Assembly: GCA_016788115.1 (NCBI GenBank)
Contig: JAEURR010000003.1
Coordinates: 186,001 to 250,000, forward strand
Direction: 5' to 3'
From: Chthonomonas sp.
Lineage (GTDB): Bacteria; Armatimonadota; Fimbriimonadia; Fimbriimonadales; Fimbriimonadaceae
Length of the DNA stretch: 64,000 bases
The stretch's first letter is position 1; each line of letters begins with the position of its first letter. The translations under genes were made by a program, and so were the position numbers. Below the pieces are notes generated by a model. That model did not search any database. It had not been told where the DNA came from and saw nothing but the letters and a program-made list of their open reading frames with translations. Of this stretch, positions 9,488 through 23,838 are shown piece after piece.

Positions 9488-9599
9488 GGAACGGGGACAA
9501 GGCTAAAGATCACGCCACAGAACCAGACAATCATGCTGTAAGTCCTGATCACATGGATGGTGATGCCTGAGGGGCTTGCAGATACCAGGAGCAAACCGG

Positions 9600-10796
9600 A
9601 TGCCACATTTCCTTTACACCGCAATGGACACTAGCGGCCGCCAGTTCAAGGCGGTCATGGAGGCCGAGAACGAAGCAGTCGTTCTGTCGCGACTCCGAGA
9701 GCAGTCGCTGCATTGCCTGCACATCGAAGTCACTAAGCGCGCTTCGAAGAAGGCGATGGGCAAAATCAAGCCCAAGGCACTCGTCGTCTTCAGTCGGCAG
9801 TTCGCCACGATGATCGATGCCGGTATCCCGATCTTGCGCTGTCTGGACATTCTTACCAGTCAGAGCAAGGACCCGATCTTGAAGCAAACGCTGGAGGGCG
9901 TGACCGCGGACGTAAAGGCCGGTCTGACCCTGAACGAAGCGCTCGCCAAGCATCCCAAAGTCTTCAGCAAGCTCTACGTGAACATGATCCGCGCCGCGGA
10001 GATCGGCGGTATCTTGGACACGATCCTCGACCGTCTCGCCGGGTTCCTTGAGTACGAGGCCGAAATCAAAGGCAAGATCAAGAGCGCGATGATGTACCCC
10101 ACGTTGGTACTCGCGTTCTCGGTCATCATGCTCTTCGCACTGTTTAGCTTCGTGTTGCCCAAGTTCAAAGACATCTTCTCGGGTATGAGCGTCGAGCTCC
10201 CGCCCGTCACCAAGATGCTCTTCAATTTCGGTGACTTCATGAACGCCAACTGGTGGATCATCCTACTCATCACCGGCGGCTTCTTCTTCGGTGTGAAAAC
10301 GTGGGCCAAGACTCCCAAGGGCTCGTACCAGATGGACTGGTTCAAGCTCAAGGTGCCCGTCATGGGTGACCTCTCGCTCAAGATGAGCGTCGCTCGATTC
10401 TGCCGCACCTTCGGTACCCTGCTCAGTTCGGGCGTCCCGATGATGCGCAGCCTCGAAATCGTGGGTGAGACGCTGAGCAACGCGGTTTTGACCGCGGCGG
10501 TGGACAACACCCGAAACAGTATTCGCGAAGGTAACCGCCTCGCGGTCCCGCTCGTTCAATGCGGACTCTTCCCTAGCATGGTCACTCACATGATCGACGT
10601 GGGTGAAGAATCGGGCCGCCTGAGCGAGATGCTTGTCAAAGTCGGAGACTTCTACGACGGCGAAATTGAGGCCACCGTGAAGGGCCTGACCTCGATGATC
10701 GAGCCGCTGCTCATCATCTTCATGGGTGGCATCGTTGGATTCATCGCCATCTCGGTAATGACCCCAGTCTTCACGCTCGTCAACGAAATGAAGTAA
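9600..10796 (+). CDS. pilC: Type II secretion/type IV pilus inner-membrane protein (PilC/GspF)
   Basis: 398 residues, the usual length for PilC/GspF, the polytopic inner-membrane platform that couples the assembly ATPase to pilin or pseudopilin polymerisation. Two T2SSF domains are visible (about 65-190 and 265-390): FSRQFATMIDAGIPILRCL and ARFCRTFGTLLSSGVPMMRS are the paired signature helices. Hydrophobic helices lie near 165-190, 215-235 and 365-390. I chose the ATG at 9600 because AGGAG ends 8 nt upstream; the GTG at 9576 has no such site. It stands alone: no pilB, pilT or pilin gene is nearby, so the rest of the machine is elsewhere. Confidence 0.93.
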   Translation: MPHFLYTAMDTSGRQFKAVMEAENEAVVLSRLREQSLHCLHIEVTKRASKKAMGKIKPKALVVFSRQFATMIDAGIPILRCLDILTSQSKDPILKQTLEGVTADVKAGLTLNEALAKHPKVFSKLYVNMIRAAEIGGILDTILDRLAGFLEYEAEIKGKIKSAMMYPTLVLAFSVIMLFALFSFVLPKFKDIFSGMSVELPPVTKMLFNFGDFMNANWWIILLITGGFFFGVKTWAKTPKGSYQMDWFKLKVPVMGDLSLKMSVARFCRTFGTLLSSGVPMMRSLEIVGETLSNAVLTAAVDNTRNSIREGNRLAVPLVQCGLFPSMVTHMIDVGEESGRLSEMLVKVGDFYDGEIEATVKGLTSMIEPLLIIFMGGIVGFIAISVMTPVFTLVNEMK

Positions 10797-10816: not shown

Positions 10817-10839
10817 TGGGCGCGCCGGAGGAAGTCGCG
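10817..10839 (+). terminator. GC-rich hairpin behind pilC
   Basis: GGCGCG pairs with CGCGCC around an 11-nt loop, 20 nt past the pilC stop. No T-run follows. The rest of the 153-nt gap to the sigma-factor gene shows no gene. Confidence 0.3.
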
Positions 10840-10949
10840 CCGAGAACACACAGAGAGCGGTGTCCGATCACGCCAGGATGGCAAGATCGTGCACCAGTCG
10901 GAACGGAGTCCGGCTCGCCTCTCAAATCATCAATCAACGGAGTGAATCG

Positions 10950-12263
10950 ATGTCTGAACAATCATCTAATGTCCAGGACCGGGAGGGTCTTGTACTTCGA
11001 TATATCGCGAACCCTCGGGCCGATCTGAAAGACATGATCATGGTCCAATACTCGGGGCTAGTCGAGCGCATAGCGCGACGGTTCTCGGGGCTTGAGCAGC
11101 AGGACGACCTCATGCAGGTCGGCTTCATCGGGCTCCTGAACGCGCTGTCTAAGTTCGATCCGTCCACGGGGGTCCGCTTCAACACGTACGCAACCCACCT
11201 GGTGGCGGGCGAGATCAAGCACTACCTGCGCGATCGAACCCAAACAATTCGCCAGCCAGCCTGGTTGCAAGAATTGCGACACCGCGTAAACAAGGCCGTC
11301 AACCTGCTGCAAGCGCAGTTGGGTCGCCAGCCGAGCATGGACGAAATCGCCAACGAACTGGGCATCTCGGCCGTTGCAGTCGAAGAAGTTTTCCAGACCC
11401 AGGAAATGCTCAAGCTAGCCTCGCTGGACCAATCGGCGAGCGGCGAGGAAGAAGGCACATCGGAAATCGACAACTTGGACGCGAGCGACTTCAGCTCGAC
11501 CCAGCTTGCGGTCGAGGATAGAGTCGTACTGGAGCGCGCCATCACGCAGCTTCGAGACTTGGAGCGCGAAGTGCTGGTTCTCTTCCACTTCGAATCGATG
11601 AACCAAACCGAGATCGCCCATCGACTGGGGATCTCCTGCAACTACGTTTCGCACATCCTGCGCCAGTCGCTGGGCAAGCTGCGCCGCATCCTCACCAACG
11701 AAGAGGCGAGCGACCGCGTGCTCAAGCGCCAAGCCGACACGCTGGAAGACACCGTGGTGGACAACCTGACCGGCGTCTACAACGAAGACTACTTCCGGTC
11801 GCGAGTGGGGGAAGAACTGCACCGCGCGTCGCACTCAGGTTCGCCTTTGGCGGTGGTCGGTATCCGGTTCGAAGGGATCCGCGATCTGAAGACCTACTAC
11901 GGTGAGGCGTGCGTGCGTGACTTTCTCGTCGACGCTGCCGAGCAACTGAAGGAGTGCGTCCGACGACTGGACGTGGTCTGTCGATTCGGCCCGCTTGGCT
12001 TCGCGGTCATCTTGCCGAGCACGAACGTCTCGACGGAGGTCGTCGTCCAGCGCCTCATTCGCAAGTTCGAGGACTGGCTGGAGAACCGGCGCGCGCCCAG
12101 CGGACCGATCACGATTGACGCGACGACGGTCGTCGCGCCGATGCAGGCAGGTTCGCTAGAAGAGATCATCGCCGCAATCCGAAAGGAAGAAGTCGAAGAG
12201 GCGCCCGTGCTCACTCTCTCCGTGGGCGAGGCGACGGGCAAGCGCAAGCGCAAAGCCGCCTAA
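10950..12263 (+). CDS. Sigma-70 family factor fused to a degenerate GGDEF domain
   Basis: 437 residues. Residues 10-105 match sigma region 2 (ENDLMQVG-like DDLMQVGFIGLLNALSKFD, then VRFNTYATHLVAGEIKHYLRD), 105-160 region 3 (LGRQPSMDEIANELG), and 190-250 region 4 (LRDLEREVLVLFHFE, then a helix-turn-helix MNQTEIAHRLGISCNYVSHIL). This is the SigB/SigF/WhiG-like group 3 pattern. Residues 268-415 align with a GGDEF domain: DNLTGVYNEDYF, a central LVDAAEQLKECVRRLDVVCRF, and LPSTN. The GG(D/E)EF signature is replaced by GPLGF (347-351), so cyclase activity is not expected; nucleotide sensing or dimerisation is inference. A basic tail KRKRKAA ends it. Start chosen at 10950 behind GGAG. No anti-sigma factor is adjacent. 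Confidence 0.85.
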   Translation: MSEQSSNVQDREGLVLRYIANPRADLKDMIMVQYSGLVERIARRFSGLEQQDDLMQVGFIGLLNALSKFDPSTGVRFNTYATHLVAGEIKHYLRDRTQTIRQPAWLQELRHRVNKAVNLLQAQLGRQPSMDEIANELGISAVAVEEVFQTQEMLKLASLDQSASGEEEGTSEIDNLDASDFSSTQLAVEDRVVLERAITQLRDLEREVLVLFHFESMNQTEIAHRLGISCNYVSHILRQSLGKLRRILTNEEASDRVLKRQADTLEDTVVDNLTGVYNEDYFRSRVGEELHRASHSGSPLAVVGIRFEGIRDLKTYYGEACVRDFLVDAAEQLKECVRRLDVVCRFGPLGFAVILPSTNVSTEVVVQRLIRKFEDWLENRRAPSGPITIDATTVVAPMQAGSLEEIIAAIRKEEVEEAPVLTLSVGEATGKRKRKAA

Positions 12264-12288: not shown

Positions 12289-12320
12289 CGGGCCGCACCT
12301 CTCCGATTGGGTGCGGCCCG
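12289..12320 (+). terminator. Intrinsic terminator after the sigma-GGDEF gene
   Basis: CGGGCCGCACC (12289-12299) pairs perfectly with GGTGCGGCCCG (12310-12320), followed by TTTGCTGTGT. It separates the sigma-factor gene from tdh. Confidence 0.75.
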
Positions 12321-22143: not shown

Positions 22144-23838
22144 ATGCCCACCGACTTTGCCCAAATCGTCCTCCACTGCGCACCGGCGGACCCCAACCAG
22201 GGGTTTGTGCGTGAGGTCGTGGAGCATTGGGGCTTAATGGCGCAATGGGCGGAAACTCTTGATGAGACGGTCCTGAATGGGTGCGACGTCCTCGTTCTGT
22301 TCGGCCCCGGAACCGTCACCGAGTCGATGAACTCGGCGGTTGGCGGCTGGGTTGAGCGCGGCGGCCAGCTCCTCTGCGTCGGCTCGACGTGGGAACTTCA
22401 AAATGTCTTGGGTCTGTTGCCGTTCGAGCACGTGGCGATCGGTCGTTCGCACCTACAGCCCTTGTCTGGTGCAGCTCTTTTCTGGCCCGAAGAGGTCGGC
22501 GAGATTGCGATCGCGGGCGGCGTCCTGGCGGCCACCACTGCCTCGGAGATGCTCGCCCAATGCGGGCCAGATTTCTGCGGTTTCAGCCACCGCGTGCTGG
22601 GCCGCGGCGCGGCTTACTTCGTCGCCGGTGATCTGGGGCGCACCGTTTCGCTTTACCAGCAGGGCGTCGGCGTCGCCACCGCGGGCGTCGGTCCGAATGA
22701 CGGGACCGTCAAGTTTGGACAGGGCCCTCTGCGCGCCGAAGACGGCATCGCGCTGGACTTCAATCGCGACCGCTCGCATGCCGAGCACAACCAAGCTCCG
22801 TACTTCGGCACTCCCCACACCGATGCATTTAAAGAGCTGGTCCTGAAGTGGATCTTGCGGGCTACGGCCGAATGCGGCAAGTCGGCGGCCATCGCCTGGT
22901 ATTGGCCCGACAACGCCGAAGGCATCGCCATGATCAACGTCGAATGCGACGATTTTGACCCCGACCACGTTTTTCGGATGAAGCAGATCATGGACGTGAG
23001 CGCGGTCCCCAGCAACTGGCTGGTACCGAGTCCGGGCTATCCGCTTGAGACGTATCGCATGATCCGGCGATGGGACGATGAGGTCGGGCTTCTCTACGTC
23101 CCCGGCGAGCATTGGTCCGACGCTGCCATGCGCAGTCAGTATCTTTTGATTGGCCGTTCCAGCGGCACCCCCGCCTTGCTCACGGCGAGCATACGCGACG
23201 GAGGCTGGGAAGGGTACAACGAGTTTTACGCCATGTCGGACGGGGCCGGGGCCCGCCTGAGTGTGGCCAAAGGCGGACGTCAGCCTGGCTCAGCCGGTTT
23301 CGCGTTCGGCACCTGCCACCCGTTCTATCCCCGCAAGCGAGACGGTTCGGCATACCTGACTCTGGAACTGCCGGTGACTGTGTACGATCCTGGACACACG
23401 ACCCCGACATCCACCATGCACGCGATCTTCCGGCAGACCGCGATGCGCCACGGGTGCGCGAACGTGACGATGCAGGTCCGCATGTACCAGAACGTGCACG
23501 GACCGATCTCGATGAAGCAGGTCTTCCTGCTCGCAAAGCAGTATCGGCTTCAGTGGACGTTGCCAAACACCCTGATCCTCTTCCAGAGGGCGCGCCGCCA
23601 CCTGCAATGGACTGTCGATACTCGCGGGTCGATTACCCTCCAGAGCGACTTGGCTCTGAACAGTCTGACGCTCATGGTCACGGGCCACGAAACTCAGTGG
23701 ACGGCGAACCAGATTCGTCCGCGAAACGTGCGTGTCACGCGCTATGGGATCGATTTCACGACGGTCACCGTTGATCTCGGAGCACGCTCGCCGCTGACAC
23801 TCGCCCCCGCACGCGAGCTTGACGATCTCGCTGCCTGA
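22144..23838 (+). CDS. Unknown two-domain protein: GATase-like N-terminus, NodB-like C-terminus
   Basis: 564 residues, no signal peptide. The first 240 residues resemble the ThuA/class-I glutamine-amidotransferase-like fold seen in carbohydrate enzymes: DVLVLFGPGTVTESMN, then a strand-rich part ending near residue 235 in PHTDAFKELVLKW. The second half has AMINVECDDFDPDHVF (about residue 260), where D may mark a polysaccharide-deacetylase-like metal site, followed by an EVGLLYVPGEHW stretch. The C-terminal 130 residues look like a small beta-sandwich. I do not know the family. A GATAAT hexamer lies 21 nt upstream of the ATG. purS follows after 22 nt, but a carbohydrate role seems likelier than purine synthesis. 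Confidence 0.65.
   Translation: MPTDFAQIVLHCAPADPNQGFVREVVEHWGLMAQWAETLDETVLNGCDVLVLFGPGTVTESMNSAVGGWVERGGQLLCVGSTWELQNVLGLLPFEHVAIGRSHLQPLSGAALFWPEEVGEIAIAGGVLAATTASEMLAQCGPDFCGFSHRVLGRGAAYFVAGDLGRTVSLYQQGVGVATAGVGPNDGTVKFGQGPLRAEDGIALDFNRDRSHAEHNQAPYFGTPHTDAFKELVLKWILRATAECGKSAAIAWYWPDNAEGIAMINVECDDFDPDHVFRMKQIMDVSAVPSNWLVPSPGYPLETYRMIRRWDDEVGLLYVPGEHWSDAAMRSQYLLIGRSSGTPALLTASIRDGGWEGYNEFYAMSDGAGARLSVAKGGRQPGSAGFAFGTCHPFYPRKRDGSAYLTLELPVTVYDPGHTTPTSTMHAIFRQTAMRHGCANVTMQVRMYQNVHGPISMKQVFLLAKQYRLQWTLPNTLILFQRARRHLQWTVDTRGSITLQSDLALNSLTLMVTGHETQWTANQIRPRNVRVTRYGIDFTTVTVDLGARSPLTLAPARELDDLAA

Follow-up and report, generated by a model that had tools for sequence, protein, structure and literature searches.

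The window, by which we mean the whole stretch of 64,000 nucleotides analyzed here, carries on its forward strand a continuous open reading frame (10950 to 12263, ATG to TAA) for a protein of 437 residues, in which a sigma-70 factor is fused to a degenerate GGDEF domain. Sigma regions 2, 3 and 4 occupy residues 33-245 (11046 to 11684), with Pfam limits of 33-97 for Sigma70_r2 (PF04542), 108-170 for r3 (PF04539) and 197-245 for r4 (PF04545), all above cutoff. A long helix predicted by AlphaFold2 (residues 230-264, 11637 to 11741) leads from region 4 to the GGDEF domain at residues 269-407 (11754 to 12170), which was identified, with its enzyme site lost, by Pfam PF00990 (E=6.6e-19, 68.7 bits against a cutoff of 23.8), fold match and homologue counts. 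Inside the domain lie an RxxD I-site (R338-D341, 11961 to 11972) and the degenerate signature GPLGF, which replaces GG[DE]EF at residues 347-351 (11988 to 12002). The protein closes with a disordered tail (residues 416-437, 12195 to 12260) that ends in Ala-Ala and resembles an ssrA/ClpXP degron. All these features, as well as a hairpin resembling an intrinsic terminator 3' of the gene (12289 to 12320, 12 pairs, 10 of them G-C), are on the forward strand. Directly 5' and on the same strand lies a 406-residue reading frame (9576 to 10796), separated from the fusion gene by 153 bp, which we take from its sequence to be a pilC/gspF-like gene and thus presumably to encode the inner-membrane platform of a type IV pilus or type II secretion system.

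The original prediction had placed the sigma regions and a GGDEF-like fold in one continuous frame and had read the signature as GPLGF, and both observations hold. Because the frame is unbroken, Pfam matches both domains, and 58 of 61 relative genomes contain the full-length fusion across both halves (E<=1e-83) without internal stops, the fusion is neither a product of chance nor of a frame error. Two separate genes joined by such an error, the objection raised with the prediction, can be dismissed, since the window and nearly all homologues show a single frame. The same count provides the survey of related genomes that had been proposed; the three relatives without the fusion (G024, G052 and G054) gave sigma matches only. 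More widely, a family model was matched by 221 of 291 Armatimonadota genomes (E<=1e-45), the weaker of these matches being possibly to the sigma part only. Among the best 80 of 132 loci, those with a name are nearly all from Armatimonadota (Fimbriimonadales, Chthonomonadales or unplaced), and a few are titled "bacterium" only; the full set of loci may include other phyla.

For the comparisons below, 120 homologue loci were reduced to 94 distinct ones. Removal of two without the I-site region gave a set of 92, and removal of one open-ended copy gave a set of 93 for the C-terminal ends. One homologue (L095) runs off its contig end. The sole frameshifted copy, L083 from Uphvl-Ar1, breaks at residues 330/333 within the GGDEF half, through either a sequencing error or a real loss. 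The fusion is a new combination of known modules: no sigma/GGDEF fusion was described in the literature searched, which mostly leaves subscription papers outside its coverage, so that novelty is weakly supported, and none appears in the accessible parts of PMC9239204, PMC12564702 and PMC10333796.

The presence of regions 2, 3 and 4 in the Pfam matches makes the protein a member of the sigma-70 family of the group 3 type. Its best NCBIfam match was SigBFG, with 187 bits against a curated cutoff of 234.35 (TIGR02980), and the score against the FliA/WhiG subfamily (TIGR02479) was 131.3 bits, under the curated cutoff of 189.6. Regions 2-3-4 are common to the fusion and to the SigB/SigF/SigG and FliA/WhiG sigmas, but the fusion scores below both cutoffs and adds a GGDEF domain and a tail. 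That it is simply the FliA of the phylum could be rejected, as a separate sigma of the source genome (L171:4417-5193) exceeds the FliA/WhiG cutoff with 230.4 bits. In eight genomes (G006, G012, G017, G019, G026, G031, G032 and G044) another sigma gene was seen about 5-15 kb from the fusion gene, and in G032 this is the FliA/WhiG-type one.

Structure models were made of the full-length protein and of the GGDEF part alone. The full-length AlphaFold2 model, built with 40 homologues, had a mean pLDDT of 81 and a pTM of 0.41, which together with pLDDT values of about 65-77 for residues 241-270 leaves the arrangement of the domains unfixed, and the tail was modeled as disordered (pLDDT<50). In the PDB this model matched structures of sigma factors as well as of GGDEF proteins, with a TM-score by target length of 0.80 for 4urg. 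Modeled alone, the GGDEF part reached a pLDDT of 88 and gave Z values of 18-19 to PleD, WspR and other GGDEF structures (VIA-align), with c-di-GMP-bound PleD among the top fold matches. The similarity to GGDEF folds, for which structure prediction had been suggested as a check, was thereby confirmed, and as modeled the domain is a true GGDEF fold.

The enzyme site of this fold has been lost throughout the family. GG[DE]EF is retained in none of 92 distinct complete homologues, and none keeps the set of metal and substrate residues examined. At the positions aligned with metal- or nucleotide-binding residues, taken from the residue roles in PleD, D was found at 306 in 8 of 92 and N at 314 in 1 of 92, and both signature acids in 0 of 92. 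An active diguanylate cyclase was rejected on these counts, and the earlier suggestion that the domain probably does not make c-di-GMP is borne out by an enzyme site destroyed in 92/92. The c-di-GMP inhibitory site RxxD (R338-D341), on the other hand, is intact in every one of the 92. In alignment A2, which comprises 83 of 91 domain slices, E288, R338 and D341 are the only invariant columns of the GGDEF half, and elsewhere in the domain identity falls to about 20%. As a control we counted RxxD in GG[DE]EF proteins of the source and related genomes and found it in 29 of 33. Since the motif is this frequent in ordinary cyclases, RxxD alone proves no receptor role; it is its outliving of the enzyme site that counts.

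A domain that "senses or binds a nucleotide, or mediates dimerisation", as originally proposed, fits a true GGDEF fold that is catalytically dead across the family. Of the nucleotides listed at that point, the invariance of RxxD favors c-di-GMP over c-di-AMP, ppGpp and GTP, and from these alignments we consider c-di-GMP the likely ligand of the GGDEF part, with about two chances in three. The ligand would be available in the cell, as the source genome encodes four other GGDEF proteins, all with GG[DE]EF, and has five HD-GYP and three PilZ matches. The combination of a kept I-site and a vanished enzyme site is the one known from PopA and PelD, degenerate GGDEF proteins that bind c-di-GMP according to PMC12564702 and PMC10333796. 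PopA is a REC-REC-GGDEF protein that acts on a separate client, whereas the fusion has receptor, transcription factor and Ala-Ala tail in one polypeptide. With PleD and WspR, which are diguanylate cyclases inhibited through the I-site, it has the fold and RxxD in common, but it is without GG[DE]EF and is not an enzyme.

The same domain can be read in other ways. It could serve only for dimerization or for docking to an anti-sigma factor, a local cyclase or a pole, with no nucleotide bound and RxxD kept for structural reasons; the complete loss of the enzyme residues and, in the model, a helix of the kind that dimerizes cyclases leading into the domain would agree with this. We nevertheless regard it as unlikely, at about one chance in five, because two of the three invariant columns of the GGDEF half are exactly the I-site RxxD pair in a domain that otherwise drifts so far. 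Less probable still, and quite improbable in our view, is that a different guanine nucleotide, for instance (p)ppGpp or GTP, occupies the old enzyme pocket. The best fold matches include PDB entries 9g85 and 9g86, in which PleD is bound to c-di-GMP together with ppGpp or pppGpp, but the metal- and nucleotide-binding positions are lost or variable in the counts given above. The fast evolution of the GGDEF half might even suggest that the protein is a relic in which neither the sigma nor the enzyme part is still active, and to this we give hardly any credence, as the homologue alignment has many invariant columns in sigma regions 2 and 4, the frame is open in nearly all genomes across the phylum and both the tail and the I-site are conserved.

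The reading of the fusion as a c-di-GMP receptor can be set beside RsiG-WhiG, and the comparison made in the original prediction is apt. According to PMC8325347, no sigma/anti-sigma complex other than RsiG-WhiG is known to be a c-di-GMP target; there the ligand controls an alternative sigma factor, and in Rubrobacter type IV pili. The known route from c-di-GMP to sigma factors in that source thus runs over a separate anti-sigma of coiled-coil type, unlike the built-in domain of the fusion, and the RsiG motif E(X)3S(X)2R(X)3Q(X)3D was found in 0 of 94 fusion homologues.

The Ala-Ala end of the protein is conserved. Among 93 closed homologues 85 end in AA and five in VA; NF, LE and AF are each the end of a single homologue, AF that of the frameshifted L083. 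The linker before the end is unconserved. In a background of 496 neighbouring genes of at least 200 residues, which includes one homologue fragment (L081) and surely some false reading frames, AA ends were found in 14, or in 11 of 493 when three GGDEF proteins of the source genome are left out. ClpXP prefers AA ends, and an exposed tail with such an end is what characterizes an ssrA-like C-degron. The source genome has ClpX, and its tmRNA tag, ANNSYAYAA, is likewise AA-ended. According to PMC12564702 and PMC8138137, PopA works with ClpXP and the degron of its client CtrA ends in NAA, and CpdR/RcdA/PopA are given as the adaptors of CtrA degradation (PMC8138137). The tail may therefore be a degron, and regulated proteolysis of the fusion is plausible, at slightly less than even chances. 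The AA end is not particular to the fusion, as it was also observed in 23 of 32 closed GG[DE]EF proteins of the source and related genomes (L121, L122, L123, L141-L169), in two of five HD-GYP and one of three PilZ reading frames of the source genome, and in FliW of G000 and G033. From these ends the tail would seem to belong to the c-di-GMP and motility network as a whole.

To which programme the sigma belongs was approached through co-occurrence. Flagellin is present in 57 of the 61 relatives. Within the order, 94 genomes have both fusion and flagellin, three the fusion only (G015, G032 and G156), four flagellin only and 12 neither, kinship being uncorrected; the four with flagellin only are drafts of 72-89% completeness. 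In genus g20 the fusion was found in 11 of 11 genomes with flagellin and in 0 of 9 without (11/0/0/9, again uncorrected for kinship). Outside the order the association is looser (both 65, fusion only 23, flagellin only 30, neither 60), with the fusion counted at E<=1e-80 only, as matches weaker than that (about 1e-46 to 1e-78) may cover sigma only. A canonical FliA/WhiG-type sigma is kept in eight of the nine flagellin-less g20 genomes (E<1e-60; the G142 copy lies in two pieces), so that the co-loss with flagellin is specific to the fusion, which likewise argues against the fusion being the FliA of the phylum. The link to flagella may rest on few independent losses. Overall, flagella are the probable target of the fusion sigma, at odds somewhat better than even.

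The position of the gene points elsewhere, as it lies outside any flagellar operon and adjoins pilC, which is directly 5' on the same strand in 67 of the 83 loci with enough flank (median gap 106 bp); in the window no terminator-like site was found on the forward strand between the two genes. The fusion sigma could thus control type IV pili instead of flagella, as WhiG/RsiG does in Rubrobacter according to PMC8325347. Against this stand the g20 genomes, in all 20 of which presence or absence of the fusion agrees with that of flagellin, and the genome paper of Fimbriimonas ginsengisoli, the available part of which reports pili genes and no motility. We find control of pili possible but rather doubtful, with a probability of less than one in three.

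When the DNA preceding the fusion gene was searched, over at most 2.5 kb in each locus, eight SigB-like boxes (GTTT/GGGTA) were found against 3.4 in shuffles, and two FliA-like boxes against 0.0. The FliA-like boxes, TAAA-N15-GCCGATA, were found only in L110 and L120, at -98 and -100, which suggests from the sequence that these species transcribe the fusion gene with canonical FliA. Upstream of flagellin genes, FliA boxes were found in 4 of 65 (0.5 expected), and most of the others have a palindrome of about CCnaGTA-TTTTACtaGG (EM motif; L170-L259). This palindrome precedes many flagellin genes by about 100-130 bases and is probably an operator for some flagellar regulator. No site in the flagellin upstreams studied could be assigned to the fusion sigma as a target promoter or regulon. 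By inspection flgM was not in its usual place before flgN in the flg operon of L260 and L262.

The mRNA leader of the fusion gene carries a further possible level of control. Folding of 10830-10952 gave a first hairpin at 10859 to 10895 (forward strand) with GGA in the loop and the core GCCAGGATGGC at 10872-10882, and RNA fold and hairpin scan gave a second at 10896 to 10915, AGTCGGA-ACGGAG-TCCGGCT, again with GGA in the loop and resembling a CsrA site. The ribosome-binding site ACGGAGTGA (10937 to 10945, forward strand) itself contains GGA. CsrA sites have GGA in hairpin loops, and GGA hairpin loops near the ribosome-binding site, as in CsrA-regulated mRNAs, were thus found in this leader. 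In the leaders of the 90 of 94 homologues with at least 120 bases we counted 58 GGA-loop hairpins (stem score >=6), where dinucleotide shuffles yielded 1.4, and at least one was present in 47 of 90 leaders compared with 10 of 383 upstreams of other genes. By this strict rule 43 of 90 leaders, including most Chthonomonadales-like loci, have none. No other loop triplet tested exceeded 36 hairpins, the highest being AGG (36), which overlaps GGA. The sequence GGAGTGA is found in 32 of 90. Between species the stems vary in sequence and the loop is constant, as for CsrA sites. RNAalifold on 59 unselected leaders, in which loop lengths differ between sequences, gave no consensus pairs, the leader of the source genome is little more stable than its shuffled versions (z -1.26), and Rfam gave no match across the window.

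The regulator itself is widespread, with csrA in 60 of 61 relatives. In the source genome it comes after flgN, flgK, flgL and fliW (L174), FliW being assigned by NCBIfam, and in G007 about 1.3 kb separates csrA from the fusion gene. For the family of the window we judge CsrA control of the fusion, as read from these leaders, to be plausible and somewhat favored.

In our best reading, which we favor with moderate confidence, the fusion is a flagella-linked alternative sigma that is itself a c-di-GMP receptor, is unstable and is controlled by CsrA. This alternative sigma of Armatimonadota would carry its own c-di-GMP receptor of the PopA kind, a GGDEF domain that no longer makes the second messenger and has kept the I-site. 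There, c-di-GMP from the cell's own GGDEF enzymes would bind and probably cross-link two molecules, as in product-inhibited cyclases, and the ligand would alter the amount of free sigma able to join RNA polymerase, the rate at which the Ala-Ala tail delivers the protein to ClpXP, or both. CsrA at the GGA hairpins of the leader probably also limits synthesis. If the sigma serves the flagellar (motility) programme, high c-di-GMP would be expected to switch it off or destabilize it. More tentatively, and with rather more doubt than belief, we propose that the sigma combines the c-di-GMP receptor with a PopA-like adaptor acting on itself, where the I-site ligand would control the exposure of the Ala-Ala end to ClpXP, so that controlled destruction would set promoter choice; it would then be a node of a c-di-GMP and motility network in which cyclases and FliW are AA-ended too and CsrA limits translation. 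A sigma that senses c-di-GMP itself and is kept throughout a phylum would link this messenger to promoter choice by the most direct route possible, and a single protein with two point mutants would then suffice to test the motile-sessile decision in this poorly studied phylum.

Further Ala-Ala ends were seen outside the proteins discussed so far. In L036, L040, L100 and L107 the gene upstream of pilC is AA-ended, and by its place and a related PilT-looking sequence we presume it to be pilT. In the window itself, a 564-residue protein without any Pfam match (22144-23838, forward strand) ends in LAA.
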